64,000 nt of DNA from Okeania sp. SIO1I7 (GTDB lineage: Bacteria > Cyanobacteriota > Cyanobacteriia > Cyanobacteriales > Microcoleaceae), in the NCBI GenBank assembly GCA_010672585.1, contig JAAHGF010000006.1, forward strand, positions 62,001 to 126,000, in the 5' to 3' direction. Position numbers and translations under genes: made by a program. The notes under the pieces were generated by a model. The model ran no database searches and was not told the DNA's origin. It saw only the letters and a list, made by a program, of their open reading frames with translations. Below, one piece after another: positions 977 to 50,800 of the stretch. Numbering within the stretch: position 1 is the stretch's first letter; each line of letters starts with the position of its first letter.

Positions 977-1190
977 AGTTGATTTTTCGGTACACTTAGA
1001 GACAATTAACTTTAGCTAATCTCTAATAGCTTTTTGCTGATAGGAAGCATTAGTATAAAGGCAGAGAGGAAAATATAAATCTCACAAATAAATTTATGAG
1101 TATGAGTAGGAAGACTTTTTTCTTCTACTCCTCACTTTCTGCTTTTTTTTGGTAAAATAATAACTGTTCAATATCAGCTTGAGAAATAAA

Positions 1191-2665: not shown

Positions 2666-2680
2666 GATTATTCTCCTTTT

Positions 2681-2748
2681 TTGACATCCTCCCGACGCTG
2701 CTCTACGAGACAGCGTGGGATTCCCGATCCATTGCTGATAGGGAATCG
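2681..2748 (-). mobile_element. Orphan right end of an IS605/TnpB-type element
   Basis: The segment starts TTGACATCCTCCCGACGCTG, then has an inverted pair around GAGACAGC and GGGATTCCCG. It is almost identical to the right end of the intact TnpB element at 61144 and to another orphan at 62752. On the minus strand it reads as the 3' part of an omega-RNA-like scaffold. No tnpB reading frame is attached, so this is a relic or a small non-autonomous derivative. Confidence 0.65.
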
Positions 2749-2794
2749 TTTCATCTAATCATAACTTGATCGTTTTGATTTCGTAACAAGTTTT

Positions 2795-3026
2795 ATACCA
2801 ATTTTATGAATGTTTGCTACAAATAGTTAGGCTATTTCTTAGGAGTAAACCCACCCGCGGGTCCCTCCCCTCCTGGGAGGGGAACTCAGTCGGACCGAGT
2901 CGTATGGGAATAGTTTCAATACCAGTTTTTAGCTAATAAATTCTATTTTTTGTCAAAGGGAGACCTCCTGTAAAATCTTTTTCTTATGCTTATTATTCAA
3001 ACACATTCTTTTTTCAAAATGGTATT
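2795..3026. repeat. Family D MITE-like repeat, copy 1
   Basis: The terminal inverted repeats are ATACCAATTTT on the left and AAAATGGTAT on the right. The interior has TGTTTGCTACAAATAGTTAGG, the C-rich CCCTCCCCTCCTGGGAGGGG module, and AGACCTCCTG near the right end. Close copies are at 33266-33495 and 59267-59524. It ends about 60 bases before the pyrF-pyrE start codon and could carry part of that promoter. Confidence 0.75.
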
Positions 3027-3087
3027 ATATATTGAAAATGAGTAGAGCAATAATATAAAAATTATCAAAGGATAGAGAGAAATTATT

Positions 3088-4584
3088 ATGAACTTTTTTG
3101 ATAAATTATTAATCAGTATAGAACGGAATCAAAGTTTACTCTACCTCGAATTAGACCCAGACCCAGAAAGTTTACCCAAAGAAGTTGCCCACCAAAATAT
3201 TCCAGCAAAATCTTTATTTGTTAACCCTCCAGAAAAAGATAATCAAGAATTAATTCAAAATTGGAATGAGTGGCTCTATTTTTTAATAACTCAAACAGAA
3301 AAATATGTATGTGCTTATAAACTTTCTCTAGGCTATTATCAATCTTTGGGTATACCAGGTTTAGAACTACTTCAGCAAACCATAAAAACTATTCCTTCTG
3401 AAATTCCAATTATTTTAGATGCGAAACACGGCGACCTCAATACAAGTACAGTATTTGCTAGGACTATTTTTCAAGATTTGCAAGTAGATGCTTGTACAAT
3501 TTCACCTTATACTGGTCTTGATTTAGTTGCACCTTTTTTACTTTATCCAGGCAAAACAGTCTTCCTGCTTTGTGCCACAGCAAATTCTTCTGCAGCAGTA
3601 TTACAAGAATACCCAAATCAAGGGCAACCTCTTTATCTCAAATTAGTAGAAGAAGCTCAAAGTTGGGGAAGTATTGAACAGCTAGGTTTAGAAGTAGGAG
3701 TAATGCCGGATATTCTCGCTAGAATCAGAAAAATTGCTCCTGAAAGATTAATACTAATTCAGGGAGATATAGCGGAAGAAAACGATATTGCTAATCCTGA
3801 AGAATTAGCTCAACTTTTAGCTGCTGGTTTGAATATTAATGGTGAAGGGTTATTATTACCAATCCCACCAAAATTATTTGGTGCAGCACATCCTAATCAA
3901 GAAATTGAAACCTTAAGAGATAGGATTAATCAACAGCGTCTACAAGTAGTTGAAGGTAGTCCGACCTGTGAATTGTGGTTGCCAGATGTTTGTTTTTTAA
4001 AGCATGAACCACACCGGGATTTAATCTTACAACTTTACGATATTGGCTGTATTATTTTTGGCGACCATGTACAAGCATCGGGGGCGACTTTTCCTTATTA
4101 TATAGACTTACGAAAAATCATTTCTATTCCTCAAATATTCCATAAAATAGTTACTGCTTATGCAGAGATTCTCAAAGAATTAGAATTTGATAGAATTGCA
4201 GGTATTCCTTATGGTTCATTGCCCACTGCAACAGGTTTAGCTTTGCGTCTAGAACGTCCGATGATATTTCCTCGTAAAGAGGTAAAATCTTATGGCACTG
4301 GTCGATTAATTGAGGGACATTTTCAACCAGGGGAAAAAATTGTTGTTGTGGATGATATTATGATTAGCGGTAATAGTGTAATGAAGGGAGCAGATAAACT
4401 TAAATCAGTGGGATTAAATGTAGAAGATATTGTTGTTTTTATTGACCATGAACGGGGTGTAAAAGATAAGTTACAAGCAAATGGATATAGGAGTTATTCA
4501 GTATTGACTGTGACAGAAATTGCTCAAACTTTATATGAGTCTAGTAAGATTAATTCCGAACAATTTGATATTCTGAAAAAGTAA
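3088..4584 (+). CDS. pyrFE: Bifunctional OMP decarboxylase / orotate phosphoribosyltransferase
   Basis: The 498-aa fusion covers the last two steps of UMP synthesis. The N-terminal half is a type 2 (long) orotidine-5'-phosphate decarboxylase with the catalytic Asp-Lys-Asp in LDAKHGDLNTS (D111, K113, D116); the usual Arg after the Lys is His here. The C-terminal half, from about residue 290, is an orotate phosphoribosyltransferase. It has AGIPYGSLPTATGLAL, FPRKEVKSYGTGR and the PRPP loop VVVDDIMISGNS (about 418-431). The order PyrF-PyrE is the form known from several cyanobacteria and is opposite to eukaryotic UMP synthase. Length and motifs indicate a working enzyme. It is transcribed alone. 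Confidence 0.93.
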   Translation: MNFFDKLLISIERNQSLLYLELDPDPESLPKEVAHQNIPAKSLFVNPPEKDNQELIQNWNEWLYFLITQTEKYVCAYKLSLGYYQSLGIPGLELLQQTIKTIPSEIPIILDAKHGDLNTSTVFARTIFQDLQVDACTISPYTGLDLVAPFLLYPGKTVFLLCATANSSAAVLQEYPNQGQPLYLKLVEEAQSWGSIEQLGLEVGVMPDILARIRKIAPERLILIQGDIAEENDIANPEELAQLLAAGLNINGEGLLLPIPPKLFGAAHPNQEIETLRDRINQQRLQVVEGSPTCELWLPDVCFLKHEPHRDLILQLYDIGCIIFGDHVQASGATFPYYIDLRKIISIPQIFHKIVTAYAEILKELEFDRIAGIPYGSLPTATGLALRLERPMIFPRKEVKSYGTGRLIEGHFQPGEKIVVVDDIMISGNSVMKGADKLKSVGLNVEDIVVFIDHERGVKDKLQANGYRSYSVLTVTEIAQTLYESSKINSEQFDILKK

Positions 4585-23479: not shown

Positions 23480-23642
23480 AATATCATGTCCGGATAATTA
23501 GCGATAAAAAAAACTTCCTCTTATTTTTTGCTTCTTTCTTCCCTCCTGACTCGGTCGTTCCCCTCCTGGGAGGGGGAGGGGCGAGGGGTGGGTTGACTCC
23601 TCCGTCATTTTGTTTATAAGTAATCAACCGGACATAATATAA
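23480..23642. repeat. Family C MITE-like element, copy 1
   Basis: The left end AATATCATGTCCGGATAATT and right end CAACCGGACATAATATAAT are inverted. The interior has AAACTTCCTC, CTTCTTTCTTCCCTCCTGAC, and the GGGAGGGGGAGGGG module. It lies about 110 bases beyond the 3' end of the 1824-aa gene. Copy 2 is at 30269-30409; single ends occur near 33641, 38681, 52855, 59003 and 59173. Confidence 0.75.
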
Positions 23643-23749: not shown

Positions 23750-26700
23750 TTAATTTTTCATTGCTTGCAAGATACGTCCCACCACAGGGTCGATTCGCCA
23801 GTAGTTTTTACCATCATTTTTACTACCGACTGGGGTAGCGAGACTGAGTAAATCTGCCCACTGGAGAGTTTGATTAATAATTTCAGGGGAAATGTCCTCA
23901 ACAAGAACAATTAAATCTTCAACCGATGCTTCATTTTCCCAATTAGCTAAAGCTTTTAATACCTGTTTTCGCTGAGATTGGGAATCATCAAATCCCATTG
24001 ATAGATATACCTCCCTTAAAAATTCAGGAGTTTTTAACTGCTGTTCTAAATTATCTAAAGCTTCTTGCCAGCGACTAGGTTCAGAATTAGTTAGTTGATA
24101 GAATTGTTGCAGCAGAAATGACCAATTTCCGGTGATATTAGTAATCTTTTCCCTGATTGTAGGCTCGCTGTCAAAGTGACAATCATCTAGCCAATGTCGC
24201 AATGCTGCATCACTCCAAGGTTTAAGAGTAAAAGTTGTAAGTTCTCTTTCTTTTAAGTTATAGCTAATCGACTGCCACGCTTGTTCGGAATTGCCCATAA
24301 AAACAATCTTGGCAAATGAAGTCTTGGCTTTCAATCTCTTAACTTTCTCCCTAGCTTCATCAATCCATTTTTCATCCCAAGGACAAGTCGGTGAGACAAC
24401 AAACAATGATGTGCCATTTTTTTCTCGTTGCTTAAGGTCATGCAAGCGGACGCTAAACTCATCAAAAGAGGAAAGACTATCTAGACCAATTAAGAACTTC
24501 TCACCAACTGCCGCCTTCAGAAATTCTGGCAAATATTCTAGTCCCGCAGCAGAGCAACCAAAGACGAGGGCAACATCATTTCTTTGACTCTCAAGAGTGG
24601 ATTTCTGTTGATCTGTTAGCGGACTGCGCCTGAAATCATCTTCATTCAGAGCCGATCGAAAAGTAGCAGGTTCATATTCAAGGGGAATCTCGCGGTCTTC
24701 TCTGAGTAGTTTTGCCTCAATCTCTTGCTGGCTTCCCATCAGTAAAGTCACATTAGGACTCCTCAAAGTGAAATAGCCTTCACTACTGACTCGCAAAACT
24801 CCCAGTCCCACCATTTCTTCTAATAAAGCACGAATATCATCTAAAGACGAGCTTCTTTGAAAACCTTTTGGCCACCAACCCAGTGCTTGATCCTTAATCC
24901 AAGATACACCGAAGCCATCCGTAATAGCTCTTTTTGACTCCAAAGCTTCATAAGCAATAGCGTAGGCAATAACCTCATACCGCTTATCCAATCCTAGTGT
25001 CAACTCAAAACGATCGCGAATTGCTTGTCGCAGTTTTTGATTTTCATAAGCCTCTTTAACACGCTCGGAAGCAATTTTATAGGGAGGGCTACTTTTGGCA
25101 TCGAAACTTTCAAAATCAGGGTTATTGATATGTTCGAGCAACTGTTTACAGTAGAGTTGAATCAAACTGGGATAATAATTAGTCTGGGAGAGAATCCGAA
25201 AAATCAAATCTGGGGACTCAAAGCGATAGCCAAGATTTGCTAACGGACGCTGGATTAAAGCGGTTGCTGCCCGCATTTCACCATTATTCAATAGCGGACC
25301 GATACAAATAGGCTGTCCAAAGTGAGCTAATGGATGATTAGATTGTCTCGTCGTGCGCTGGACGTTATGCAATCCTGCAAATACAACTTTAAAACGTCTT
25401 TCTGTCTCCAGCATTAACTTCCTCAACCGATCGCAACGTACAAAATCTTCTTTGGCATCTCCTTCCAGGAAATTATCTGCTTCATCTAACAGCAGTAAGA
25501 TTCGTCGTTGGTTATCCTCATCTAACCAGCTTTTAACTAAGTTTCTGAAACCCTCCCCAGATTTGGCATCTTGAGAATTTGTAACCTTTAGCTTCTCCAG
25601 TTCTACTCCCATAATTTCCCAAATATCATCCAGAGGTTGCTTGCGACCTACTTCTTTTATATCTATAAATCGAGCTGTCCAGTTGCGATTCTTAGCATTA
25701 AAGTCACGCTCAACGTAGCGCAGCAGAACAGTTTTGCCTAACTGGCGACCTCCATAAATTAAACAAGACCCCATTTTGTCCTGAATAGATTTTCGTTCTC
25801 GTTCGCGTCCATAAAACATCTCAGGTGGAACTAACCCTGCTTCTGTGCTATAAGGTTCAATGAAAGTAAATGGTAAAGTACATTCAAACATAATCGGTAG
25901 GCGATCGCCTGGTATTGTACACAGATATAGCATTAACATATCGTCAATGACTATAAATTGGCGATATCGCTCCCGACATAAATCTGCTAACTTTCGCCGT
26001 GCTTGTTTTGAGGCAATTCTACCAAAGTGGAATACCAGGACTGGATTGGTTTGAGAATTTGACTCAACAGCATTGAGTAAGTTCTCTACATTAGGTCTAC
26101 CCCACACACACAGAATCTGGTAGCATCCCTCAGCTTTTGAACCGTAGACAGGAACAGGACAGCGATTTTTATCTTGTAATGGCTCAGTGTTGACATCAAA
26201 CCAAATATATTCTTCTCTTTCTCCAGCGTTTCTCATCTGAGCTATTACAGAGTCAAAACCAAGAAATCTCAAAATTTTACTGGCATCTTTGTCTGTGACT
26301 CCTTGCTTTCTCCCTTTTACCGAAAACCAGGTTTCAAGTGTTCCTGCTGCTGTTTTGGCGGTATTTCCCTGTGGCATTCTCATGGAGTTAATACTTCTAC
26401 CTTTTTTAATGTCCTCAATCAGTTGATCCTTTCTATTTTTATACTTATCAGTGGGCTTTAAGACATCTTCAATGTCAGTATATTTTTGGTCGAAAAAATC
26501 AAGGAAAGTATCTCTTTTGTTTTCAAGATCGGGAATTGGTCGTCCCTGCTTCACCATCTCTATATACTCATTAGCAGTTAAGATATCCCCCTTCTCCAAG
26601 ACAGTGTTAATTCGGTCAAAGGCATCAGGGTGACTACTCTCTATTCCTTGTTCTTTTAGTTCATTGCGCATATGAGTAACTTGTTCGTGTTGTTTATTAC

Positions 26701-29224
26701 GAATTGCCTTTTCTATACTATCAAGTTGCTTAAATTTTACAGAAAAGCGCAGGACTGTTTCTCGATCGTTTGTGAGCGTCTCTGTGAGCGCCTTAGTTTT
26801 TCCTATATATTCAAGCCACTCTGTTTCTGTGAGTAAACCCAAAGCTACTGCTTCCTCAACTTTATTGCTAGTTTTTTTGATTGCATCTTGCAAGCGGGTG
26901 CAACAGTCATTAATAGCATCATTTCGCTTCAGCTCTAGTTGCTCAATATTAATCAATTCCGAACCGCGCTCCCGAAGATACTCAATAATTCTTTCTGTTG
27001 CTTCGTGGTCTAGTTGCTGGCAACGATCTTCAAATGCTTGTTCCCAAGTTTTACCGCCGTTAGCAACCGTTTCAATAATGCCATTGATTATTTCTTCTAG
27101 ATCGGAAACATCTGCTTCCCATTGTTCGTTCATTGGTAGAGATGAAATTTTTAACAGTGGGGCGTGGATGATATGTTTTGGGTTCCCCTTGACTCTGGGT
27201 AAGGGTTCATCTGGATCGAATAAAGCACGGATATCTTCGATCGCTTTTCTGCAGCAAGAGAGACCAGCTAAAACAAATAATGGAGGATTTTCCTTTTCGT
27301 AGTCGTTAAGTTCGGCGATCGCCTTATCCTGAACGCCAGAAATTTTTTGTCCCAACAGTTCTGCTTCCTGCTGAATAGAGTTCTTTTTGTTAGCTTCTAG
27401 TTCTTCTTGTTGTAATTCTACCCACTCTTTTGCTAAATCTAAAGCTTCAGCAGTGAACTTGCAAAGGCGATCAATCATCTTTTCTGGAATAGGTGTGCCA
27501 CGTCGTGCAGTACGAATTTGACCTTCTGTACGTCGTGCTTCTTCTTTAATTTTTGACTCATCTAATAGCTTGTTAACTTGCGTTTCTACAGTTTTCCATG
27601 CACTGTTATCCTTAGTTATAATCGGATTTAGCAAACAATAGACTAACCCATCAGTTCTTAGCCAATCTTTCCAAACTTTTTTCGCCACTCCATGCTTCAT
27701 ATCATACGCTTGTGCTTGAGACCACCAATGGTCAACCTTTTGATATAACTGCTCTAAAGATTTTTGTCGTTCTGCTGGAGATGTAGCTTTTTTCAGCATT
27801 TTGGGTGCTAGTGGTAAATGTTTTTTGCCGTATTCAGAAATGACTTGGCAATATTCGTAAAGTTGATTGAGTTGAGCTGTACCCAAAGGCAGTCGTTGGA
27901 GAATATTATAAGCTCCTGTATCGGGAGCTAGCAATGCTGGACGTATTGATGCAGCAGCTAAGAGCAACATAACTGCATAACTCCATTCATTTTTCCCAGA
28001 GGTTTCGTTCCCGGTATAGTTAGCAAAATCATCTTTAAGTCGATAGGCAATTTCTCCAACTTCAGAACGCAAGTGCTGACTTAAGGCTAATGCTCGAATT
28101 AACCAAGATGGCAGATGTGGTTCTACATTGGGATATTGCTGCTCCACCGCATAAGCTAAATGGTAAGCCAAGCTGAGTTGCTGTTCGCGGATTAGTTGCC
28201 AAATTAAATCGCGCAAACCTGTAGGGTGTTCTTTATTGATGCCATTTTTGATAATAAGTTTAGCGATCGCTTGCGCAGTATCTTCTAAAGAGTAATTGTA
28301 AAGAGGTTGTTCGGCTTCTATTTCCTCTGGTACTTCCGTGCTTGGTAATGTTGTTGGTATCTCTACTGGTGCTTTCTCTGGAATAACTTCAACAGTTGCT
28401 TGCTCTTGAGAATCTTTGATCGGAGGTAGAGCGATATCTTCTGGCAAATAGTTGTCAATAGATTGTTCGGTTTCTATCTCCTCTTGTGCTTCCGTGTTTG
28501 GTAATTGTGTTACTGTCTCTACTGGTACTTCGTCTAATATAACTTCAACAGTTGGTTGCTCTTGGGAATCTTCTATCGGAGGAGGAGCGATCGCATTTTC
28601 TCTTGATGGTACTGCTTCTTGAGGAGAATTTGTATTGACAAAACTCTCATTTTCTGATAAAGATTCAACAATTTGTTTTTGCTGTTCTTTTGCTTTTTCT
28701 TGGAAAAGGATACTTCCTGTTAATATTGCCATTGCTAAATGCATTCCAAAGGATGCATTAACACCTGCCTGTAGTTCAGCTAGATGCAGATAGTCTTGAG
28801 GAGATTCCCGTTCTGAAATTAGTTCCAAAAGTTCCGAAAAAGGATGTATTTTATCAGTCAAAGTTTGAGTTTCTATATCTACTTCACCTTCCAAAACTTG
28901 TTGTTTAAGTTCTTGGGCTTTTTTCTGACACTCTAGTAAAGACTGAAAATTATTATTATCTTGATGAGACAGTCTTAAAACATCTTCCAAAACTGCTAAT
29001 GCTTTCTGTCTAATTTCCATTCTGAGCTTCTGTTTCTCTTTTGCTTTTTCAACAGTTTCCAGTAAAGATTTAAGTTGAGAAATAGAGACAATCTCATCCG
29101 GTGATTGTTGAGGCGGTACGCTGAAAGATTCAGCTACTTTAAGCAGTTTATTTCGGAACTCAAAAAAGCTCTTTTGTAAAGATTCAAATTGTTTTTGTAA
29201 ATCAGTGAAATTATTATTTGACAT
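23750..29224 (-). CDS. Very large P-loop ATPase with coiled-coil N terminus, unrecognised family
   Basis: The product is 1824 aa. About 1-130 is coiled coil. About 215-315 is an acidic Pro/Glu linker holding a duplicated unit (DSQEQPTVEVI and DSQEQATVEVI). About 320-960 is mainly helical. About 965-1130 is an alpha/beta domain with FHFGRIASKQARRKLADLC and FIVIDDMLML. A STAND/AAA-like NTPase follows, with Walker A YGGRQLGKTVLL (about 1157-1168) and Walker B LLLLLDEADNF (about 1243-1253). A winged-helix-like segment leads to a last domain with a degenerate loop (LVFGCSAAGLEYL) and repeated Trp motifs. There is no signal peptide or membrane helix, so it is cytoplasmic. The layout is that of a signalling or conflict-type STAND protein, but I do not recognise the family. 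It stands alone between two family C repeats, with a truncated HTH relic upstream. Confidence 0.85.
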   Translation of the reverse strand: MSNNNFTDLQKQFESLQKSFFEFRNKLLKVAESFSVPPQQSPDEIVSISQLKSLLETVEKAKEKQKLRMEIRQKALAVLEDVLRLSHQDNNNFQSLLECQKKAQELKQQVLEGEVDIETQTLTDKIHPFSELLELISERESPQDYLHLAELQAGVNASFGMHLAMAILTGSILFQEKAKEQQKQIVESLSENESFVNTNSPQEAVPSRENAIAPPPIEDSQEQPTVEVILDEVPVETVTQLPNTEAQEEIETEQSIDNYLPEDIALPPIKDSQEQATVEVIPEKAPVEIPTTLPSTEVPEEIEAEQPLYNYSLEDTAQAIAKLIIKNGINKEHPTGLRDLIWQLIREQQLSLAYHLAYAVEQQYPNVEPHLPSWLIRALALSQHLRSEVGEIAYRLKDDFANYTGNETSGKNEWSYAVMLLLAAASIRPALLAPDTGAYNILQRLPLGTAQLNQLYEYCQVISEYGKKHLPLAPKMLKKATSPAERQKSLEQLYQKVDHWWSQAQAYDMKHGVAKKVWKDWLRTDGLVYCLLNPIITKDNSAWKTVETQVNKLLDESKIKEEARRTEGQIRTARRGTPIPEKMIDRLCKFTAEALDLAKEWVELQQEELEANKKNSIQQEAELLGQKISGVQDKAIAELNDYEKENPPLFVLAGLSCCRKAIEDIRALFDPDEPLPRVKGNPKHIIHAPLLKISSLPMNEQWEADVSDLEEIINGIIETVANGGKTWEQAFEDRCQQLDHEATERIIEYLRERGSELINIEQLELKRNDAINDCCTRLQDAIKKTSNKVEEAVALGLLTETEWLEYIGKTKALTETLTNDRETVLRFSVKFKQLDSIEKAIRNKQHEQVTHMRNELKEQGIESSHPDAFDRINTVLEKGDILTANEYIEMVKQGRPIPDLENKRDTFLDFFDQKYTDIEDVLKPTDKYKNRKDQLIEDIKKGRSINSMRMPQGNTAKTAAGTLETWFSVKGRKQGVTDKDASKILRFLGFDSVIAQMRNAGEREEYIWFDVNTEPLQDKNRCPVPVYGSKAEGCYQILCVWGRPNVENLLNAVESNSQTNPVLVFHFGRIASKQARRKLADLCRERYRQFIVIDDMLMLYLCTIPGDRLPIMFECTLPFTFIEPYSTEAGLVPPEMFYGRERERKSIQDKMGSCLIYGGRQLGKTVLLRYVERDFNAKNRNWTARFIDIKEVGRKQPLDDIWEIMGVELEKLKVTNSQDAKSGEGFRNLVKSWLDEDNQRRILLLLDEADNFLEGDAKEDFVRCDRLRKLMLETERRFKVVFAGLHNVQRTTRQSNHPLAHFGQPICIGPLLNNGEMRAATALIQRPLANLGYRFESPDLIFRILSQTNYYPSLIQLYCKQLLEHINNPDFESFDAKSSPPYKIASERVKEAYENQKLRQAIRDRFELTLGLDKRYEVIAYAIAYEALESKRAITDGFGVSWIKDQALGWWPKGFQRSSSLDDIRALLEEMVGLGVLRVSSEGYFTLRSPNVTLLMGSQQEIEAKLLREDREIPLEYEPATFRSALNEDDFRRSPLTDQQKSTLESQRNDVALVFGCSAAGLEYLPEFLKAAVGEKFLIGLDSLSSFDEFSVRLHDLKQREKNGTSLFVVSPTCPWDEKWIDEAREKVKRLKAKTSFAKIVFMGNSEQAWQSISYNLKERELTTFTLKPWSDAALRHWLDDCHFDSEPTIREKITNITGNWSFLLQQFYQLTNSEPSRWQEALDNLEQQLKTPEFLREVYLSMGFDDSQSQRKQVLKALANWENEASVEDLIVLVEDISPEIINQTLQWADLLSLATPVGSKNDGKNYWRIDPVVGRILQAMKN

Positions 29225-29448
29225 AGTTTGATTATTTCCGAGAAAATTACTTGTTTATTGTTCATTATATATCTGGTTTATTTTTCCAGCATTGAATAGA
29301 TTTTCATTGTTGTTAACTCGATAATTAATTGATGAAGTGAGGCAGTCTTTATTTTTATTCAAAGGTTTTTCTTGTGAAATATCTCTGGTAATTAAATCTC
29401 CTTTTGAGTTGATTTTTTCAATGCGTAAGTCCTAAATTGAAAATTAGC

Positions 29449-29598
29449 CTAATAGGGAAGAAGTCTACAACTTCCTGATCTATTGACAATTTGGAATGCC
29501 ATGCCTAAGTATTTGGCAAACTGAGAATTAGATAGTCCTAAATGTTGTCTGAGAGTTGTGATGAGAAATGGAATATCTATTGAAGTAGTTAAAATCAT
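29449..29598 (-). pseudogene. Truncated XRE-type helix-turn-helix remnant
   Basis: A 49-codon frame from ATG 29598 to TAG reads LRQHLGLSNSQFAKYLGMAF then QIVNRSGS. That matches the first two helices of XRE/Cro-type transcriptional regulators of the plant-like cyanobacterial kind (usual text LRxxLGLSQxxFAxxLGVSFQTVNRWE). After NR the conserved Trp-Glu-x-Gly is missing and the frame ends shortly after LLP. It is either a degraded regulator or a very short HTH peptide. It reads in the same direction as the 1824-aa gene, about 225 bases upstream of it. Confidence 0.5.
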
Positions 29599-30268: not shown

Positions 30269-30409
30269 AATATGATGTCCGTTTTATAGTGTGATAAAAA
30301 ACTTTCTTCTTCTCTTCCTTCTTTTTTTCTCCTGTACGTCGCCCTAAGGACGACTCCCCTACCTTACTCCTCCGTCGTTATTTATAAGTATTCAACCGGA
30401 CATGATATA
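30269..30409. repeat. Family C MITE-like element, copy 2
   Basis: The left end TAATATGATGTCCGTTTTAT and right end CAACCGGACATGATATAA resemble copy 1. Inside are AAAAACTTTCTTCTTCT and CTCCTCCGTCGTTATTTATA. It ends about 45 bases before the start codon of the kinase-ATPase gene. Confidence 0.7.
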
Positions 30410-30455
30410 ACTGGCTAAGTCATTTAATTAAGTTAACTCAAAATCACAAATAAAA

Positions 30456-33209
30456 ATGTCTGAAAATAATTCTTTAATTGGTCAAACTCTCAGACAACAT
30501 TACAAAATTGTCGAACAATTAGGTTGTGGGGGTGGGTTTGGAGAAACTTATATTGCTGAGGATATAGATATACCAGAAAATCCTAAACCTCAGCGTGTTG
30601 TTAAACGACTAAAACCGACGATTAAGCATCAACAAGTCCAAAGATTATTCGAGCAAGAAGGTCAAATTCTCAACCGACTTAGTAGATACGATAAAATTCC
30701 TACTTTGTATGCTTATTTTGAGCATAATCAAGAATTTTATCTAGTTCAAGAACTGATAATAGGTCATGATTTAACTACAGAAATGAGTCAGCCTTGGAGT
30801 GAAGCTAAAGTGCTAAATTTTTTGTCAGAAATTTTAGAAGTTTTAGCTTTTGTACATCAAAATGGGGTTATTCATCGAGATATTAAACCGGGGAATATTA
30901 TGCGGCGAGACCGCGACCAAAAATTAATGTTAATTGATTTTGGTGCGGTTAAAGAAGTAAGTAATATTGTTGTTAATTCTCAGGGAAAATCTAGTAGTAC
31001 AATTGCAGTAGGTACTCCTGGTTATATGCCTGTGGAACAAGCACAAGGAAGACCACAATTTGCTAGTGATATTTATGCTGTGGGTATTACTGCAATTCAA
31101 GCTTTGACAGGAGTTTCACCGAGGGATTTTATCCAAGATGAAGTTGGTGAAATAGACTTGCAAAAATTAGCTCCTAATATCAGTGAAAAGCTGGCTAATT
31201 TTTTAACAAAAATGGTTATGGTTAATTGGAGACAACGTTACTCTGATGCCACAGTAGCTTTACGAGGATTACAGGGAAATATTGAACCTATTTCTGGAAT
31301 ATTAAATTGGATTTTATTAAAGATAACTATTGGTTTAATTTGTCAGCAGAAAAATTGCGATTTTAGTATTTTTCAAAATTGCCTAGAATTATTTGTAGAC
31401 CGCCTTCAGCAAAATAGTAATTCTGTAAATTATGAACTTTACAAAACTGTCAGTATTTCGCTCTTAAATGCACAAGAAAAAATTGCTATTGAATATAGAA
31501 ATCAGATTGGTGGTTCTTTTCCGACAATAGTTCAATATTCACCATTTCATTCTGAGGAAAAACGAGAAAATTTGGGTTGGGTGAATCGTAAAATATCTAA
31601 GTTGAGAAGTGAATTTAAAAAAATCAATCAAACAAAATATATTACAAGTTTTCCTGAAGATATTAGTTGTTTGTTAATTCCTTTGCCTCCTGTAGATGAA
31701 ATTAAGAATTTATGCCAAAGTTTTATTCAGGTTTTACTTCAGGGAGATGAACCAGATGGATACTTAGAAAAGCTGCAAAGAGATGTGGGAGGATTATTAA
31801 ACTTAGTAGCTGTTAATTTTATGCAAGAAATGCGCCATAATTCAATAGTTAAAGAAATTTTTGAATGTGATTTTTTAGAGATAATTAATCAACAATTACC
31901 AGGAGAGAAATTGACTCTAGAAGATTTAGAGAAGTCTCTCCAGAAAGTTAGATTAGAATTAACTGAATTAAGGATTCAGCAAGAAAAAGCAAAAACAGCG
32001 ATTATCTCACAACCTATTAATTTTGATGTGACACGACCAGGTAATTCACAGGTAGTTGAAAAAGGAAGAAGGAAGGAGGAAGAAGGAAGAAGGCATCCCC
32101 CATTGCCCCCCTTTGAAAGGGGGGAGGAAGAAGGAAGAAGAAAAAAGTGGATGGGGACTCAAACACCAATCAATTTTCAACACAATGAAAAGGAGTTATT
32201 ACTGGATACTCCCTCTGGTCAAGTACCACTTAATTCTATCTTTTATATAGAGCGATCGCCCATAGAGTCGGAGTGTTATGAAACTATTATGAATCCGGGA
32301 GCATTGATTCGAGTTAAAGCACCTCGACAGATGGGAAAAACTTCTTTAATGAGTAGAATTTTGAACTATGCTCAACAGCAAGGATATTACAAAGCTTGTT
32401 TAAACTTTCAGTCAGCAGATGAAGAATTTCTCACTAATCTTGATTTATTTTTAAAGTGGTTTTGTGCCAGTATTACTAACGAATTGAATCTAGAAGAAAA
32501 ACTCTCTGAATATTGGCAAGGAGTATTAGGAAGTAAAAATAAATGTACAAATTATTTTCAAAGATATCTACTATCAGAAATTGCTACTCCTTTAGTTTTA
32601 GGGTTAGATGAAGTAGACCAAGTATTTCAACATCCAGAAATTGCTACTTCCTTTTTTGCTTTGCTCAGGACTTGGCATGAACGTGGTAAAAATGAAGAAG
32701 TTTGGCAAAAGTTAAGGTTAGTAATTGTACATTCAAAAGAAGTATATATTCCTCTAAATATTAATCAGTCACCTTTTAATGTAGGTTTGCCCATAGAGTT
32801 ACGAGAACTCAACTGGGAAGAAGTAGAAAATTTAGTCAAATTACATCATCTAGAATGGTCTTCAGAACAGATAAAAGAATTAATGGCAATGGTAGGAGGA
32901 CATCCTTATTTAGTACGTCAAGCTCTCTATCAAATTGCGCGGGGAAGAATAACATTAGAAAAGCTATTACAGGTCGCTCCCACAGAAGAAGGCCCCTATT
33001 GTGACCACCTACGTCGCCACTTAAATAATCTCGAAGAACACCCAGAATTATTAACAGCAATTAAACAAATTATTACGATAGACTACCCTATATCTATAGG
33101 CACAAAAGAAGGATTCAAATTACGCAGTATGGGATTAGTAAAATTTCAAGGTAATTTAGTCATGCCTCTATGTGAATTGTATCGGAGATATTTTAGTTAT
33201 CGATTGTGA
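30456..33209 (+). CDS. Ser/Thr protein kinase fused to AAA-like (PF14516-type) NTPase
   Basis: The 917-aa product starts with a Hanks-type kinase (about 12-275) with glycine loop QLGCGGGFGETYIAEDID, Lys in VVKRLKP, catalytic VIHRDIKPGNIM (about 138-149) and LIDFGAVKE. The glycine loop has one Gly more than the usual GxGGFGxTY. Residues 275-530 form a helical region with a cluster resembling effector-associated domains. Residues 535-570 form a basic Glu/Arg/Lys linker encoded by an intergenic-type repeat. From about 575 comes an AAA-like NTPase with P-loop KAPRQMGKTSLMSRIL (about 620-635), LVLGLDEVDQVF and GGHPYLVRQALYQIA. Similar fusions are common in filamentous cyanobacteria and are thought to sense and phosphorylate; targets are unknown. 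Confidence 0.9.
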   Translation: MSENNSLIGQTLRQHYKIVEQLGCGGGFGETYIAEDIDIPENPKPQRVVKRLKPTIKHQQVQRLFEQEGQILNRLSRYDKIPTLYAYFEHNQEFYLVQELIIGHDLTTEMSQPWSEAKVLNFLSEILEVLAFVHQNGVIHRDIKPGNIMRRDRDQKLMLIDFGAVKEVSNIVVNSQGKSSSTIAVGTPGYMPVEQAQGRPQFASDIYAVGITAIQALTGVSPRDFIQDEVGEIDLQKLAPNISEKLANFLTKMVMVNWRQRYSDATVALRGLQGNIEPISGILNWILLKITIGLICQQKNCDFSIFQNCLELFVDRLQQNSNSVNYELYKTVSISLLNAQEKIAIEYRNQIGGSFPTIVQYSPFHSEEKRENLGWVNRKISKLRSEFKKINQTKYITSFPEDISCLLIPLPPVDEIKNLCQSFIQVLLQGDEPDGYLEKLQRDVGGLLNLVAVNFMQEMRHNSIVKEIFECDFLEIINQQLPGEKLTLEDLEKSLQKVRLELTELRIQQEKAKTAIISQPINFDVTRPGNSQVVEKGRRKEEEGRRHPPLPPFERGEEEGRRKKWMGTQTPINFQHNEKELLLDTPSGQVPLNSIFYIERSPIESECYETIMNPGALIRVKAPRQMGKTSLMSRILNYAQQQGYYKACLNFQSADEEFLTNLDLFLKWFCASITNELNLEEKLSEYWQGVLGSKNKCTNYFQRYLLSEIATPLVLGLDEVDQVFQHPEIATSFFALLRTWHERGKNEEVWQKLRLVIVHSKEVYIPLNINQSPFNVGLPIELRELNWEEVENLVKLHHLEWSSEQIKELMAMVGGHPYLVRQALYQIARGRITLEKLLQVAPTEEGPYCDHLRRHLNNLEEHPELLTAIKQIITIDYPISIGTKEGFKLRSMGLVKFQGNLVMPLCELYRRYFSYRL
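32058..32156 (+). repeat. Intergenic-type repeat inside the kinase-ATPase reading frame
   Basis: GGAAGAA-type heptads (GAAAAAGGAAGAAGGAAGG), then CATCCCCCATTGCCCCCCTT, TGAAAGGGGGGAGG and more heptads. The same order, heptads, CATTCCCCCTTTGCCC, TTTGAAAGAGGGGAGG, heptads, is seen between genes at 34819-34985. Here the unit is read in frame as a basic linker (EKGRRKEEEGRR, HPPLPPFERGEEEGRRKK). Confidence 0.85.
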
Positions 33210-42468: not shown

Positions 42469-43128
42469 TCATTTTTCCCCAATAAAGTATTCTTGAATAA
42501 TGTAAGTAATTACTGCACAAAAAGGGATGTACTTACCTTGATTATCCAATTTATCAAAACTATCTAGTAATTCCTTGATTTCTGATTTTTCAAGATTTTC
42601 TACAACTTCTAATATACCATCAATTGCTGCTTTACGCATTGCATTCAACTTATCAATATCTAATCCTAATTTATCAATTGTTGTCAGAGCAATTTCTTTT
42701 TCTTTTTTATCTAAAACATTAGCAGGTAAAATTTCTCCAGAACCAGTATAGCGAAAAAAATCACTACAATTTGGTTTTAAAGGAGAAAGCATCAACTTTT
42801 CTTCATACCAATCTGCTTTTTTGACACCACAATGGGGAGGTTCTTTCTTTTCTCTTTCACGTTGGCACGATGCTAATAAATTATTATAATTTAGCTGCTC
42901 TTCTGAAAAAATGCTACGAGGTTTGAGGTGTTCTATATGACTATTTTCTTTATCAATTTCCATGCCACAGTAACAACAAATATAACCCTGTTCCTCAAGT
43001 AATTTTTGATGAATATTAGTTTTTTCTTTGCTCCTTAAATCATTATAGGTAGGTTGCCAATCTTCATTAGCAGACGCTTTAAATTTTGCTAAATCTTCAG
43101 GTTCATCACTCTTTTTTATATACTTCAC
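42469..43128 (-). CDS. ptuB: HNH endonuclease, PtuB-like (Septu / TIGR02646)
   Basis: The 219-aa product has an HNH nuclease core with CCYCGMEIDKENSHIEHLKP and LNYNNLLASCQRER. Cys-x-x-Cys binds zinc, the IEH His and the Asn-x-x-x-x-Cys complete the motif. The N-terminal KYIKKSDEP and C-terminal helical part fit the TIGR02646 group that includes PtuB. Its ATG overlaps the stop of the ATPase gene by four bases (ATGA), so the two are co-translated. In Septu and in Ec78-type retrons this nuclease acts with PtuA in anti-phage defence. No reverse transcriptase or retron RNA is seen here, so Septu is the better match. Confidence 0.85.
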   Translation of the reverse strand: MKYIKKSDEPEDLAKFKASANEDWQPTYNDLRSKEKTNIHQKLLEEQGYICCYCGMEIDKENSHIEHLKPRSIFSEEQLNYNNLLASCQREREKKEPPHCGVKKADWYEEKLMLSPLKPNCSDFFRYTGSGEILPANVLDKKEKEIALTTIDKLGLDIDKLNAMRKAAIDGILEVVENLEKSEIKELLDSFDKLDNQGKYIPFCAVITYIIQEYFIGEK

Positions 43129-44558
43129 TTCTTCAAAATCTCCCGCCGACGCATTAATATATCTGCTCTGACAAATTCTGGTTCATCAGTACCTATTTCT
43201 TTCTCAATTTCTAGTCGTAATTTTCTGGCTGACTCAAGATTCCCACTATCTATTAATCGAAATAATTCCATCAATTTTTCCTTGATTTTTTGGGGACGTT
43301 CAGGAACTTTCATTAAATCTTCTAAAATACGATTACTATCTCTACCGAAGGAACTAGAAGGATGTTTAAGAATGACATTATCATCTATTTTTTCCAAAAT
43401 ATAAACGCTATTCGGTTTGATTTGACTGACAACTTGTGGGGAGTGGGTAGTGATAATAAATTGACAGTTAGGAAATGTTTTTATTAGTTTAGGAATTACT
43501 TGACGCTGCCAAGCAGGATGTAAATGTTGTTCAATTTCATCTATTAATACCACACTACTTGCTGTTAAGGGATCGGCTAAACTTGGATTAGCTATTGCTA
43601 AACGTCTTGCTAAGTCACCTACTAATGCTAATAAGCTTTTTTCTCCATCAGATAGTTGTTGAATATCAAGTTCTTGGTCTTGTTTTTTGATAGTCATTCT
43701 TGGGCGAGGTTTGCGACGGACTCTTATATCTTTAAAGTCATTTTTTCCTAATATAGAATAGATAGCTTTTCTGACTGCTTCAAGTTGGCGATCGCGATAT
43801 TCTGGATTATCTCGAAGTTCTTCATTTTCGGTTTCTTCTATTACTCTAAACCATTTAAAAAAGCTATCAAAATTAATTTGTATTCCATCAAGTGCTTGTT
43901 TGTAAGCATCAATTTGTCTAAAGGCATAATTGTCTTTGATTTCTAGAGGAACATTAAGTACAGAACGATTAACAGGATAGTAAACAATTAGAGGAATATC
44001 AAGTTGAGAATTATTTTCCAATTTAGTACGAATATCATCTGCTATTTCTTGTAAATATAGAAACTGTTCTTCTTCAATTTCATCATCATCAATTTCTTCT
44101 TCAATACTTATATTATTTCCTGAATTTTTAGGGGATATTTGTTTTCTATGGTTTTCCCCATACCAAATTATATCTCTTTCTACACCATCAATAGAAAAGA
44201 TAATTTGACAGTAGGTTTCTTGACATCCATTTGTAATATCCTGTTCGCTAAAACGTCTGCCTTCTGATTTATCTATATAATCATCATCATCTAAATCTAA
44301 ATCGTGTGTTGTCCTTTTTAGTTCATACTGAATTCTAGCTAAAAGCCAAGATAACATAATTGCTATACAGTCTAAAATACTAGATTTCCCTACTCCATTA
44401 ACTCCAATAAATACAGTAGGTTCTGTAGTCACAAAATCAATAGTTAAATTATTTATTCCTCTAAAACAATTGATTTCTAAGCGTTTAAGTTTCATCAGTT
44501 CTTTAGAAACTTTATCTTTAGAAACTTTAATAGAACCCGTAGAAATAACTCTTCCCAT
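43125..44558 (-). CDS. ptuA: AAA/ABC-type ATPase, PtuA-like (Septu)
   Basis: The 477-aa product is an SMC/RecF-like ATPase of the OLD/PtuA kind: LKRLEINCFRGINNLTIDF, Walker A FIGVNGVGKSSILD, ABC signature LSDGEKSLLALV, Walker B VVLIDEIEQHLHPAWQ and a switch His in FIITTHSPQVVSQI. No TOPRIM domain follows. It is upstream of and overlaps the HNH gene, the known order of Septu. The start may be ATG 44558 or the in-frame ATG 44495 just before KLKRLEIN, where homologues begin. The extra 21 residues contain a duplicated VSKDKVSKE. Confidence 0.87.
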   Translation of the reverse strand: MGRVISTGSIKVSKDKVSKELMKLKRLEINCFRGINNLTIDFVTTEPTVFIGVNGVGKSSILDCIAIMLSWLLARIQYELKRTTHDLDLDDDDYIDKSEGRRFSEQDITNGCQETYCQIIFSIDGVERDIIWYGENHRKQISPKNSGNNISIEEEIDDDEIEEEQFLYLQEIADDIRTKLENNSQLDIPLIVYYPVNRSVLNVPLEIKDNYAFRQIDAYKQALDGIQINFDSFFKWFRVIEETENEELRDNPEYRDRQLEAVRKAIYSILGKNDFKDIRVRRKPRPRMTIKKQDQELDIQQLSDGEKSLLALVGDLARRLAIANPSLADPLTASSVVLIDEIEQHLHPAWQRQVIPKLIKTFPNCQFIITTHSPQVVSQIKPNSVYILEKIDDNVILKHPSSSFGRDSNRILEDLMKVPERPQKIKEKLMELFRLIDSGNLESARKLRLEIEKEIGTDEPEFVRADILMRRREILKK

Positions 44559-44886: not shown

Positions 44887-47800
44887 TTACCCTCTGATAA
44901 CAAAGTCCTCAACTTCAAGCAATGCTCCATTACTCAAAGTGGCAAACTGAGCGCCATCACCAAAACCACCAGCACTACCATTGGGGTTGTAGAATAATGC
45001 ACCACTATTACTATTGTAAACAATAACAGCATCAGAAGTTGCAGCAGCATTATTAGTGGTAACAGTAGCAAATTCTGTTTCGATATCGTTAATAGCAGTA
45101 AATGTTGTTTGACTCAGGAGAATTTTATCTTGACCCACAACAAAATCAGTAATTTCATCCACACCAATATCATCAGCATCAAATTCCTGATTTGTGGCAA
45201 AGATAAAACGGTCAATACTAGCACCACCAGTCATAGTGTCATCTCCACTTCCACCGTTGAGGCGATCGCGTCCTTGACCACCATTCATCTCATCGTTGCC
45301 ATCCCCTCCAAATAGGAAGTCAATACCAAGACGACCTTCTAAAACATCATCGTTATCTTGACCATAAAGGAAGTCATTACCACGACTGCCAATAATTAAG
45401 TCGTCACCACCACTACCAACAAGAGTGTCATCTCCTGCTAGACCTGTGATGGTATCATCTCCAAAGTTGCCGTTGAGACGTTCACCTTCTGGAGTACCAA
45501 CAATTTCTTGGTCAACTGGATCGACAATAGTGACTTGAGCAACTTGGTTTTCTGCATCAACTACATAGTCTTCTGTTTCTATCAATTCAATAGTTGTGGT
45601 TTCTTCGCCTTCCGACTCCTCATCCGGAATAGTTGTCCAGGTAACAGTCGCTGTAGTTGCTCCTTCGTCAATGGTAATAGCGGAACGTGAGAGTTCATCC
45701 CCTGCTGCTTGGAGTTGTTCTAGGTTAGAAGCATTGGTTAACTCAGGAGGAAACTCAATATCGCCAAAAGCATCATCAGCATCTGTTTCTGACCAAATTA
45801 CCCGTAAACCTCCTTCTGGAGCAGCTTGACTTAAATTGAAAGTTAGGCTGTATTGACCTGCATTTTCACTAACAGTTTCCGGTTCAACATCAATACTTAC
45901 TATTATTGGTTCAATGGTTTCAGCGGGGTTAACTACAAATTCACTTACTACCTGTAGTGGACGGTTAATAATATCTTCTGGGTTTGCTAATAACTCTTCC
46001 TCTGTGTAGGGTTCCACGCCATAAGTGACAACGCGTAACTGTTGAGTTTCTGGGTCAATTTCAAATTCTGTCCAACCAAAGGTATGAGTGGCAGTGTAGT
46101 CACCTTGAACTAGGGTGGCATCAATTTGACCCTCTGCTATTTCTAAATTATCGTTCAGACCAATGGGGTCATAACCAAAGGTTGCTAACTCCTCATTGAT
46201 CAATGACTTGAGAAAATCATCTTTGTCATTAATTTCACTACCACCATCGCCGATGACTGGCAAACTCTCATAAAAAGCTACTTCTTCAGGACTCAAAAGA
46301 TTGAATGCGGCAGCTAACTCAACTACACTCTGACCTAATGGAGGTTCAAAAGCAACGGAACCTGTGGTAATTTCAAAAGCATTAGTAGCTATTTGTTCTC
46401 CACCAAACTCTTCTTGATAAGTCAGGTTATTAACTACGGTGCCGTGAATATCTGCCGCCACGAATACCACATTATTGATATCGTTATCGTCGATAAATTT
46501 GAGAATTTCTGTTCGTTCGGCAGCATAACCTTCAAAGCGAGCGCTTGCTGCTGCAGTTCCCAAGTTTTGGATGGGTTCGGGGACCATGACGAATTTCCAG
46601 GTAATATCGTTGTTTTCTGCCTGGAGTAAGTCGTTTTTCAGGTCTTCTAGTTGGGGTTCTCCTAACATTGTGCGGTCGGGGTTAAAGGAAGCTGCCAGAA
46701 ATTCTGCAATGCCTTGTGGTGTTACTTCGGCAGGGTCTAATTCTTGGTCTCGGAAGGAACGAGCGTCTAAAACAAAAGTAGCTGCATCGCTGCCGAATGT
46801 ATTATAACGATATAGTTTCCGTTCTCCTGCGGTGCGGTCTTCTCCTGTATTTCCATAAAATTCATCTTGCAAAGGATTAAATTCCTGGAATGCTTGTAGA
46901 CCATTTTCATAGAGTTCAGTGTCGTTAATTAACCCTTGTGTTTCTGGGAAGCGGGGGTCACTATTTGCGGGGGCACCTCCGGAAAAGTCGTTGATAACTT
47001 CACGGTCGTCTATTGTGGCAAAAATTGATGTGGTGGCCCGGAGGTCTGCCCAGGTATTTTCACCGAAGCGATCGCTATATACTTCTTCATGTTTGGCCCG
47101 AAATTCTTCTATTGTTTCTGCTTGTGGTTTTGGTACTGCTGGAGAGGGAATATCAGCATAAATTGTATCGCCATGTAAGACGAAGAAGTCTAAGTCTGCT
47201 TCATCAGCATTAGCAATAGCTGGATAGGGAGCAAGTTCGCCTCGCCAGTCTCCGGAGACTCCAAATTTTAAGCCAGTTTGATTACCTAATTCTGCTGCTG
47301 TGTTAAATTCTCCTATTTCTGTTGAACCTGCTGCATCGGTAACTCGATAATAATATTCGGTGTCGGGATTTAAGTTTGTTATTTCGACTTTGACTGGAGC
47401 ATTTGTTAGGTTGCTATTAACTGTTTGAATAATGTTAGTAAAGTCAGGGTTTGTAGCAACTTCAAATGTAATTTGTCCAGGGGAATTACTATTTGCCCAT
47501 AACACTGTTGAAGTCTGGGTAGTATCGCCACTAGCGATACCATTAATTAGGCTGTCTGATACTTGCCGAGGATTATAACTGAAAGGGTCAATTTCTAGAG
47601 GTTCTTCAAAGGCAGTTGCCACATTTTCCCAGGGGATAAATTTAAAGTTGGTATTGAAGTTTTGAATTTCTCCATCTTCTGGGTCTTGACTAACTGCTTC
47701 TGGTTCATTTGCTCCGTCTTGAACTACTAATAAACCGTTGGGGTAATTGTTACCTAAAGGCAAGTTAATAACATCTGCACCATCAGATTCTTGTGCTCCA

Positions 47801-50800
47801 TCAATATTGGCAAAATCTCCTACAAAGAAGTTACCAATATATTCGTTATTGCCTTCCCTTTCATAAACGGCAAAAGTATTATCTCCCTGACTAGAAGCTA
47901 ATAAATAACCATTACCATTCTCAGCATAATAAATAGTTAAACCTTCTACATCCGCTTGAATATTCTCACCAATTTCATCAACTATAGTTCCGTCTGTACT
48001 ACCATCAACTTCTGCATCAAATTTCCAAATTCCGAAGTTTTCTTGACCAGCATAAAGAAATCCTAATTCTTGGTCTACTACCATTCCTTCCACTTGAGCA
48101 TCATCCAATTCTCCACCTTCTGGAATAGGTACATCTAGACGACGAACTTCTGTGGCACTTACTGTTCCATCTCCATTACTTGTTAACTCTAACTGAGCAA
48201 TTTGGTCGCCATCTGCCTGACTAACATAAGCGTAAGTTTCTCCAGTGTTAGGATTAGTATAAGTTGCTAATCCATAAGCAGTTTGTTCCCCATCATCTAC
48301 ACCAAAAATTGAAACTTCAGGGTCGCTAAGATTAGCAGCAGTAATATTAGTAAGTTGACGAGTTTGAGGGTCAATACTCCAAATTGCTAAAGTATCATTT
48401 GCCCGGTCAGTTGCTACTGCTAAATCAACTGTTTCATCTCCTATTTGGAAGTTATAAACAATATCGACATTGTTGAAGCGAACATCCCCAGGAGTTGGAG
48501 GAGAAATTTCTTGTAAAAGTTCACCTTCTAAATCATAAACTGCTAAACCAGCATCTTTTAATGTACTAATAACTAAACTTTGGTTAGGGTTATTAGGATG
48601 AACATAAATTGCTGGATCGTCTGAATCAATACCTGTTTCAATTCTGTTCGTGTCTGGAGTTTCAACAGTAGGATAAACAGCAGGAATACTATCAATATCT
48701 AGGGAGAAACCTAAGAATTGAGTAACTTGATTTCCAGCATTAAAATTATTATCACTAACTACCACCAAAGATTGAGACCCATCTGGCAAAACAGGTCCGA
48801 ATGTCATCCCCTCATCATTATCTAAAGTAATGCCTAATTCTCCGAAATCTAATAATAATCGTTTTTCAGCTACAGCATCAACATCAAATAACTCTCCATC
48901 GGGGTCATCAGGATTAATTAAACCGTCAAAATCTTGGATATTAGTTGTATTTTGTAACTGAACTTCGTAGAGACGAATATTATTACCAACTCCAACAGAA
49001 AAAGACCTTTCTAAAGCTAATAAAGTGTCACTATTATCAAGGGCAAGTAATTCAACTAAACCATTATCTGCAAAATCATCTACTGGGTCTGGAGGAACAG
49101 GAATAGGGTCAACAAAATAGAGAAACTCTTTAATAGCTTCCCCAGTTTCTAAATCGTATTTAATAATCCGAGAAGCACTCTCATTTTCCAAAGTAGGACG
49201 TTCGCCATCTTGTACTAAAGCACTTTCTGTTGCTGTATAAAGAAAACGTTCATCAGGAGTAATTGTTAAACTTTCAAATGCCTGATTATTTCTGATGCCT
49301 TGAGTGCCATCTTCATTAGGTAAAAATTTATCTGGAATTGTTAACTCATTTAACTGTTCTCCTGTCAGAGAAAACTCATTAATAAATGGGTCAATACCAT
49401 CATTAATATTTCCTTCTGAAGATATGAATAAATTCTCACCATCAAAAGCAATTCCTTCCGGGTCAACACCATTTTCAGGAAATGGTATTCCATCATTATT
49501 TAGGAGAGTCGTAAAATCTGTAAATTCAACATCTCCATCATCAAGACTACCATCACTCCAATCAATATCAACAGTATAAAAACGGGCATCATTATTCTGA
49601 CTCCGGTCATCAGAAATAGCATAATAAATTCCTGAACCTTTATCATAACTAATACCAGAAATACCCCCTACTTCTGTACCTTCAAATTCCAATCCAGTCT
49701 CAAATTCTACCCCCCCAATAAACTCAATATTTGTGACAGTTTTACGATTTTCATTAGTAACATCTGCCCAAACCAAACGATGGTCTGAACTAGGAAAAGG
49801 AAAATCTCCCACTAAATCAAATAAAGAGTCATTTTCCTCCGGCCAAAAAACAGCAGCATCAACTATTTCTTGATCTATTGAAGGTAAAACATAATCAACT
49901 TGTAAATTTCCAGAAGTACCTTCCGCATCATTAAAATCTGCCGTATCAAAAGCAGGGTTGCCTCCATGATTTGCACTTTCTCCCCCTTGACGGTTTGTAG
50001 CATCAATTCCCCCATTACTACCAGGAGTTACTGAAGTATTAACCAGAGGATTTTCTAATAATTGATTAATAGCATTATTGAAACTATCCCCATCAACTGG
50101 GTCAGCATTTTGGTCTCCCATAATCACAAAAGAATTACCAGGATTTAAACCACCAAAATTTCCTGCATCATCATAAATATAATCTCCTTCTCCAGGAGTA
50201 ACATAATCTGCCCAAAACCGAATTTCATCGTGATTTCTTCTGCCATTTCTATCTTCCTCCCCATCAAAAACTGGTGGAGTAGGATGACTAACTAAAACAT
50301 GAACTATTTCCCCATTCACATTTATCGGCACATCCCAATGACTCTTAGAAGAAAGACGAAATACCTCTAATTCTTCCTCCGAATACCAATCATTAGGTTC
50401 CGGTGTATCAAGATTATCTGGTAATAATGCACCTGGCATATCTTTCCAGAGGAAATCTTGAAAAGTTCTGACTTCCTCTTCAACAATGGGATATTTTGAA
50501 TATAAAACCATTCCGAATTGACCAGGAAAATTGCCAAAACCAAAAGCATCATCCCCATAACCAAATTCACCTGGTGTTGTGACTATTTCCTCATTATTAT
50601 CTAGGTCAAAACCAGAAGAAATACCTGTATTAGAAGGAGCAAAATATACGAAAGGATATTCTACAGGATCTACTCCATTTTGACTGATTCCTAAATAGTT
50701 TTCTTGGAATAAATTAGCAGCAGTTCCTTCTGAGTCAAAATCAAATTCATTAACTAATAAAACATCAGGATTGACTCTTTGAATAATTTCTGCTACTGTC

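Follow-up and report, generated by a model that had tools for sequence, protein, structure and literature searches.

The window, a 64,000-nt stretch of a contig of Okeania sp. SIO1I7, carries on its minus strand one long open reading frame, P0001, the product of which belongs to a protein family that we term family A. The parts of the gene and the features on both flanks are as follows.

23610..23642: 33-nt flanking repeat D4, copy 1
23750..29224, minus strand: family A open reading frame P0001, 1824 aa, with an ATG start and no internal stop; codon-position pattern as in intact relatives
23753..24640, minus strand: second, degenerate NTPase–winged-helix (WH) module lacking Walker motifs, residues ~1529–1824 (model and profile match to the first module)
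24698..25075, minus strand: winged-helix-like part, residues ~1384–1509 (model secondary structure)
25085..25825, minus strand: STAND/Orc-like P-loop NTPase, residues ~1134–1380 (AAA_22; model; invariant G-K and D-E)
25475..25498, minus strand: Walker B LLLLDEAD, residues 1243–1250 (family alignment)
25730..25753, minus strand: Walker A GGRQLGKT, residues 1158–1165 (family alignment)
25868..26257, minus strand: alpha/beta domain, residues ~990–1119, containing FHFGRIASKQARRKLADLC (model secondary structure; conserved alignment columns)
26255..28273, minus strand: long helical region, residues ~318–990 (structure model for 640–990; sequence for the earlier part)
28279..28590, minus strand: duplicated acidic linker, two 156-nt copies (tandem repeat D1, 80% identity)
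28670..29224, minus strand: N-terminal domain, residues ~1–185 (coiled coil predicted by eye only)
29225..29419, minus strand: upstream remnant of the sigma-70-to-A linker of the SIO3B5 protein (tblastn of its residues 539–604)
29449..29598, minus strand: HTH-like relic of 49 codons at the place expected for sigma-70 (translation; named from sequence only)
30378..30410: 33-nt flanking repeat D4, copy 2, 91% identical to copy 1

This layout agrees closely with the preliminary description, in which a single uninterrupted frame of 1824 aa, a duplicated acidic linker, Walker motifs at about residues 1157 and 1243 and a second, degenerate nucleotide-binding-like domain had been proposed. The Walker A GK and the D-E pair of Walker B are invariant in the family A alignments. 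NYYPSLIQ, a candidate for the G/NxxP-type motif of such NTPases, is conserved as well, and the secondary structure after the NTPase is winged-helix-like. Residues 640–1824 were modelled on 66 rows with a mean pLDDT of 90.4 and a pTM of 0.83, and the model reproduces the domain order proposed from the helical region onward: helical region, alpha/beta domain, P-loop domain, winged-helix-like part and lastly a second alpha/beta domain, the C-terminal part of which is again winged-helix-like. By hhalign, the second domain aligns with the first NTPase–WH module at 68.6% over 230 columns, against 0.2% for the reversed control; thus, it looks like a degenerate repeat of that module. The motifs and secondary structure make the P-loop domain resemble the STAND/Orc-type NTPases.

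The only match of P0001 above a curated cut-off is to the generic AAA_22 (Pfam, residues 1152–1289, E 3.4e-8), and those to AAA_16 and TniB fall below their Pfam cut-offs. P0001 has no match in PADLOC (E up to 0.1), in NCBIfam (E up to 1) or, by phmmer, among PDB sequences (up to E 1), and a PDB profile search with A gave weak matches only, the best being the PH0952 sensor (E 0.23). The reading as a P-loop ATPase of an unrecognised family is supported; no curated match in Pfam, PADLOC or NCBIfam was found beyond AAA_22. An identity as a single-gene Avs or NACHT protein was rejected on the lack of a curated match in the same three collections. The weak TniB match (19.0 bits with a cut-off of 22.4) would fit a TniB/TnsC-like transposition ATPase, but P0001 far exceeds the 189-position TniB profile, and transposases are named only at the Salinibacter locus among 13 annotated plasmid loci (a weak observation, with only the largest neighbour clusters annotated); we regard such a role as highly improbable.

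Residues ~1–185 of P0001 show 23–40% identity to the N termini of other cyanobacterial proteins. This type of N-terminal domain also heads cyanobacterial proteins of 409–607 aa (L020, L010, L012, L007 and L008), the C-terminal repeats of which resemble ChW repeats, and a match to the domain is present in many related genomes.

Upstream of the ATG, the 65 codons at 29225–29419 are about one-third identical to the linker of the Okeania sp. SIO3B5 fusion protein. The similarity ends at 29419, an in-frame TAA at 29255–29257 interrupts it, and the match is weak, being seen by tblastn only as an extension of a strong match. The HTH relic that had been noted beside the gene is there as an HTH-like stretch at 29449–29598, but it is not the sole content of this flank, which also holds the linker remnant. 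The kinase–NTPase fusion and the Septu pair noted in the same part of the window are both real by Pfam and PADLOC. The former is a Ser/Thr kinase fused to AAA_35 (30456–33209, plus strand), an NTPase family different from family A, and the latter is a PtuA/PtuB pair 13 kb away (42469–44558, minus strand; PADLOC E 5.9e-148 and 7.7e-74). Neither shows a recurrent partnership with family A at the loci examined. Farther along, a 2005-aa protein (44887–50904, minus strand) combines Exo_endo_phos, a phytase-like esterase, phytase, PhoD phosphatase and RTX repeats.

Distribution of family A and its partner gene

Of 59 related genomes, six have the core of family A, and in two of the six (G014 and G032) it comes without the long helical region; the remaining matches at E <= 0.001 in the 59 genomes are limited to the N-terminal domain or the P-loop region. 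Within the genus, the core is found in two of five genomes, the window's own included, and the A genes of the genus-mate G001 and of SIO3B5 have identical DNA sequences. At E <= 1e-40, four of 292 genomes of the phylum contain the family, again with the own genome included. The preliminary description had named patchy strain distribution as a sign of a conflict role, and the distribution is patchy among the related genomes as well as in the phylum. A housekeeping gene was ruled out by the phylum count together with the absence of the core from three of the four other genomes of the genus. A phage gene was also ruled out, with no match among 50,697 phage records and two loci in IMG/VR.

By tblastn, family A occurs in 24 of 72,556 plasmid records. 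A scan of GTDB genomes with an alignment of 18 members returned at least 593 pattern matches and at least 569 confirmed relatives, in which a gene may be counted repeatedly. The best 80 of the at least 593 matches were kept as loci; by their titles, these derive from Cyanobacteria, Acidobacteriota, Pseudomonadota, Planctomycetota, Verrucomicrobiota, Bacillota, Myxococcota, Chloroflexota and others. Family A is a large, apparently unnamed family of many phyla and is rare in cyanobacteria. The locus set comprises 102 fetched loci, 98 after four same-contig copies were dropped; at 93 of the 98, at least one neighbouring ORF is present.

The largest neighbour cluster of A is a protein of ~380 aa, partner B, at 62 of the 93 loci (BLAST cluster). 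A profile adds eight loci to give 70 of 93, and 23 loci, several of them outside the sigma-fused clade described below, have no detected B. In 59 of the 62, the start of B lies within −170 to +20 nt of the stop of A, with start codons chosen mechanically. P0001 had been likened to large single-gene STAND defence proteins. This is not supported for the family, in which 70 of 93 loci have a HEPN-type partner gene, nor for the clade of the window copy, in which A is fused to sigma-70 and usually adjoins a nuclease–helicase gene.

Near the C-terminus, 54 of 59 B proteins have R-[NH]-x3-H and four more have R-D-x3-H; the B of L097 (350 aa) shows no R-x4-H motif, and with L097 excluded neither the R nor the H varies across the 58 rows. 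The motif agrees with the HEPN rule as worded in the accessible text of PMC3710099, by which the R of R-x4-6-H is followed by a polar residue, mostly N, D or H. The commonest Pfam match in B is HEPN_Swt1 (19 of 56 rows, best E 0.0045), which is under the cut-off in the rows shown. Compared by hhalign with a HEPN_Swt1 profile of 28 domains from related genomes, the C-terminus of B scores 70.2% (E 4e-5) over 52 columns with motif on motif, and 14 controls (the B N-terminus, a reversed profile, two A parts and ten column shuffles) score at most 0.5%. For the modelled B, Ribosomal_S13 (E 0.0066) ranks above HEPN_Swt1 (E 0.094), both under the Pfam cut-offs. A PDB profile search over the HEPN part gave ribosomal S15 (E 0.28) and Cas13a (E 3); the best PDB profile match of B, weak and outside this part, is chlorite dismutase (E 0.041). 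NCBIfam gave one weak match, in one of 56 rows. The model of B has a pLDDT of 95.3 and a largely helical C-terminus. Judged by the short motif, the 52-column profile match and the helical secondary structure, the C-terminus of B is likely to be HEPN RNase-like, and A with a HEPN-like B forms a testable two-gene unit. A reading of the N-terminal domain of B as a third NTPase-like domain is not supported (hhalign 0.2% versus the first module and 1.0% versus the second). Two longer partners (L034 and L038) match AAA_33, that of L038 under the cut-off.

Front ends, exchanged partners and ancestry of the window copy

Sigma-70 is fused to the N-terminus of A in 12 of 98 loci (phmmer; 16 of 102 with same-contig copies), all cyanobacterial by title. 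Its regions 1.2, 2, 3 and 4 are each found in seven of 83 scanned N termini and in two proteins scanned singly. No B was found at the 12 sigma-fused loci, and in ten of them an HKD-SNF2 helicase gene adjoins A, upstream in some and downstream in others; the helicase of L040 matches PADLOC C3a139 (E 2.7e-131). In the Microcoleus group the helicase is upstream of A with a four-base overlap; in Brasilonema and Phormidium it lies 16–111 nt downstream. At the other two sigma-fused loci, L055 and L057, the contig ends 433 and 0 nt downstream of A, respectively. A natural minimal A of 902 aa, which is the core only, lies beside a helicase at L062. The sigma-70 of this clade, together with WYL regulators near four loci, would suit a MalT-like STAND transcription regulator for stress or metabolism, with the sigma fusion as its informative form. 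However, sigma-70 is confined to 12 of 98 loci, and elsewhere A has nuclease-like partners and defence neighbours, so that a regulator of this kind seems very unlikely.

The window copy nests within the clade of sigma-fused proteins (tree support 100/99). A tree that constrains the seven sigma-fused rows to a clade excluding it is rejected (AU p = 0.00063), and thus the window copy most simply descends from a sigma-fused ancestor and then lost the sigma part. All five genus members have a match to the pre-sigma domain that is short and distant. The B, helicase and DruE proteins of the relatives, including DruE of G055, have no match in the window, and at E 0.001 B has none in the own genome either. 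The best own-genome match to the Microcoleus-type helicase has an E of 6.5e-14, compared with 0 in the Microcoleus-group carriers and 8.8e-60 in G001. With the sigma part lost and no detectable partner, the window copy stands alone, as had been noted, and it is probably an orphan, its function reduced or altered.

Whether this one copy, as distinct from the family, is a decaying pseudogene with its function gone was considered separately, since such decay is compatible with any function of the family proposed below. The missing sigma part, the interrupted linker remnant, the partner gene found neither in the window nor in the own genome and the repeats on both flanks all fit decay, but the 1824 codons are intact. 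The second-/third-position divergence between the window copy and SIO3B5 (0.206/0.446) is proportioned about as between intact relatives (0.272/0.559 and 0.145/0.322), which indicates that the reading frame was conserved for most of its history, and the end branch of the window copy is 0.42 versus 0.39 for SIO3B5. Loss of the sigma part may be recent, and decay would be compatible with this. We consider a pseudogene a substantial possibility, while leaning towards a copy that still functions in reduced or altered form.

Fusion of A to pPIWI-RE occurs at four loci (Azospirillum, Bradyrhizobium, Microvirga and the IMG/VR contig L132), and pPIWI_RE_X is found in four of 83 scanned N termini. The three plasmid loci with this fusion (L034, L035 and L044) also carry DinG and REase genes. 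The window protein has no pPIWI-RE match in Pfam or PADLOC. Regarding Druantia-like genes, G055 has the order DruF-like, DruL-like, DruE, A and B, and in Methylocystis the A–B pair is followed by a STY4851-family gene, which we take to be DruH, and a DruE-like helicase. One of 135 scanned A neighbours matches DruH3 (E 6.6e-120), and DruE-like helicases occur within 6 kb of ten of 93 loci.

These arrangements bear on an alternative in which A, instead of being a suicide switch, is an ATPase for assembly or DNA scanning (a role proposed for BrxC or DUF499) that aids Druantia, pPIWI-RE or HKD-helicase machinery, with B as a structural or backup subunit. The pPIWI-RE fusion itself, adjoined by DinG and REase genes, the DruE gene next to A in a Druantia-like locus and the DruE-like helicases near other loci would all be expected, and several winged-helix-like parts might contact DNA. 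However, at most loci A–B is present with no Druantia or pPIWI component close by (a seed search with few seed loci and many short contigs), and B retains an invariant nuclease-type motif. We regard this alternative as possible but unlikely.

Defence neighbourhood and proposed function

At 80 loci, neighbours of A that lie within 1.4 kb and have at least 200 aa were scanned over their first 330 aa, with A and B themselves left out. At E 1e-10, the 135 neighbours match 90 PADLOC families, and 108 neighbours of 40 response-regulator genes match four (three RtcR-type and one CARF-type); these figures are of redundant families, not genes, the commonest occurs in six of the 135, and partners such as the HKD helicase and DinG are counted in. 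Among the matches listed (25 of the 90 families) are DruE, DruH, Avs2, BrxA, DpdE, ZacA and DarG. The control loci were drawn from 33 of the same genomes, and the plasmid loci and most cyanobacterial A loci have no control of their own. A DruE-like or HKD-SNF2 helicase lies near 22 of 93 A loci and 0 of 40 control loci (seed search; Fisher p 0.0002), and near 14 of 85 versus 0 of 40 when seed loci and near-copies are dropped (p 0.005). With the same loci dropped, DruE-like helicases alone do not differ significantly (8 of 85 versus 0 of 40, p 0.054). The richness in PADLOC families among the neighbours of relatives is in line with the defence-type reading of the NTPase made from the window; a position in defence islands does not prove function.

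From the domains, adjacency, fusions, clade-specific partners and defence neighbourhood, all seen in the sequences, we infer a cue, switching by the NTPase, cleavage by the partners and phage defence. Family A is, on balance, likely to supply the ATP-driven switch in a modular system against invaders, in which both the front ends and the adjacent nucleases can be exchanged. The core would be the alpha/beta domain, the STAND/Orc-like NTPase with its winged-helix-like part and the degenerate second copy. The N-terminal front ends (the helical domain, sigma-70 or pPIWI-RE) would be interchangeable and probably sense or target. First, an invader-derived cue or nucleic acid would be bound by the front end; the NTPase would then alter its state or oligomerise. 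Finally, the nuclease would come from the adjacent gene, usually B, or the HKD-nuclease/SNF2 helicase in one cyanobacterial clade. The B partner may cut RNA, with growth arrest a likely result, and the HKD helicase partner may cut DNA. A bolder and rather doubtful extension is that sigma-fused A is a counterpart of the integrated decoys of plant NLRs: a host-type sigma factor within an NTPase immune receptor would be the bait, phage proteins seizing host sigma or RNA polymerase would trip the switch and the adjacent HKD nuclease–helicase would fire, and the same chassis would take pPIWI-RE as a nucleic-acid-guided front end. Family A also provides a way to examine whether the transcription machinery of the host serves bacteria as bait in immunity.

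NTPase-based defence with a nuclease effector is a known kind, and family A resembles several systems. With the Avs/AVAST/NACHT STAND proteins it shares a P-loop NTPase core, modular front ends, large size and defence-gene neighbours. However, A has no Avs or NACHT family match, its candidate effector is usually a separate gene, and it has a second, degenerate NTPase module and sigma-70 or pPIWI-RE front ends. The nearest known analogue of A–B is the fusion of a Swt1-type HEPN to the DUF499 ATPase in the accessible text of PMC3710099. DUF499/Hma (BREX-related type 1) combines an AAA+ ATPase, a Swt1-like HEPN and SNF2-type helicases, as far as the accessible parts of PMC3710099 and PMC12839542 go, but A has no DUF499 match in Pfam or PADLOC, and B is a separate protein with an extra N-terminal domain beside the HEPN-like one. 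Druantia is approached by the gene orders in G055 and Methylocystis, whereas A and B match no Druantia model and most loci lack a DruE-like gene. Lastly, the pPIWI-RE proteins of Azospirillum, Bradyrhizobium and Microvirga have A as their C-terminal part and, together with the DinG and REase genes there, resemble the three-gene system. The 2013 description of pPIWI-RE covers stand-alone and three-gene forms, and its main text, in the accessible part, does not contain the word 'ATPase' or name such a fusion (PMC3702460). The accessible parts of PMC13092281 (DefensePredictor), PMC7159879 (eLife 2020), PMC10853773 (NAR 2024) and PMC12839542 (NAR 2026) hold nothing recognisable as family A. Among open-licence papers, a scope mostly without subscription papers and bioRxiv, there is no description of family A, of a sigma-70–NTPase fusion or of an A–pPIWI-RE fusion.

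Family A is a common, apparently unnamed NTPase family that accompanies defence genes in many phyla, and its front ends and nuclease-like partners are swappable. Large plasmid proteins with no annotation other than 'hypothetical', 'ATP-binding' or 'RNaseH domain-containing' can now be placed in this context. At single loci, further neighbours were seen. In Streptomyces fungicidicus (L045), a 1273-aa protein annotated as sigma-70 (1–3665) lies ~5 kb from A–B, a vWA/AAA/DUF5682 cluster is on the other side, and an annotated N-6 methylase is ~2 kb beyond B. On an Agrobacterium plasmid (L038, 17300–20676), ThiF and patatin genes, which are presumably CBASS-like, are found ~1.3 kb beyond B.
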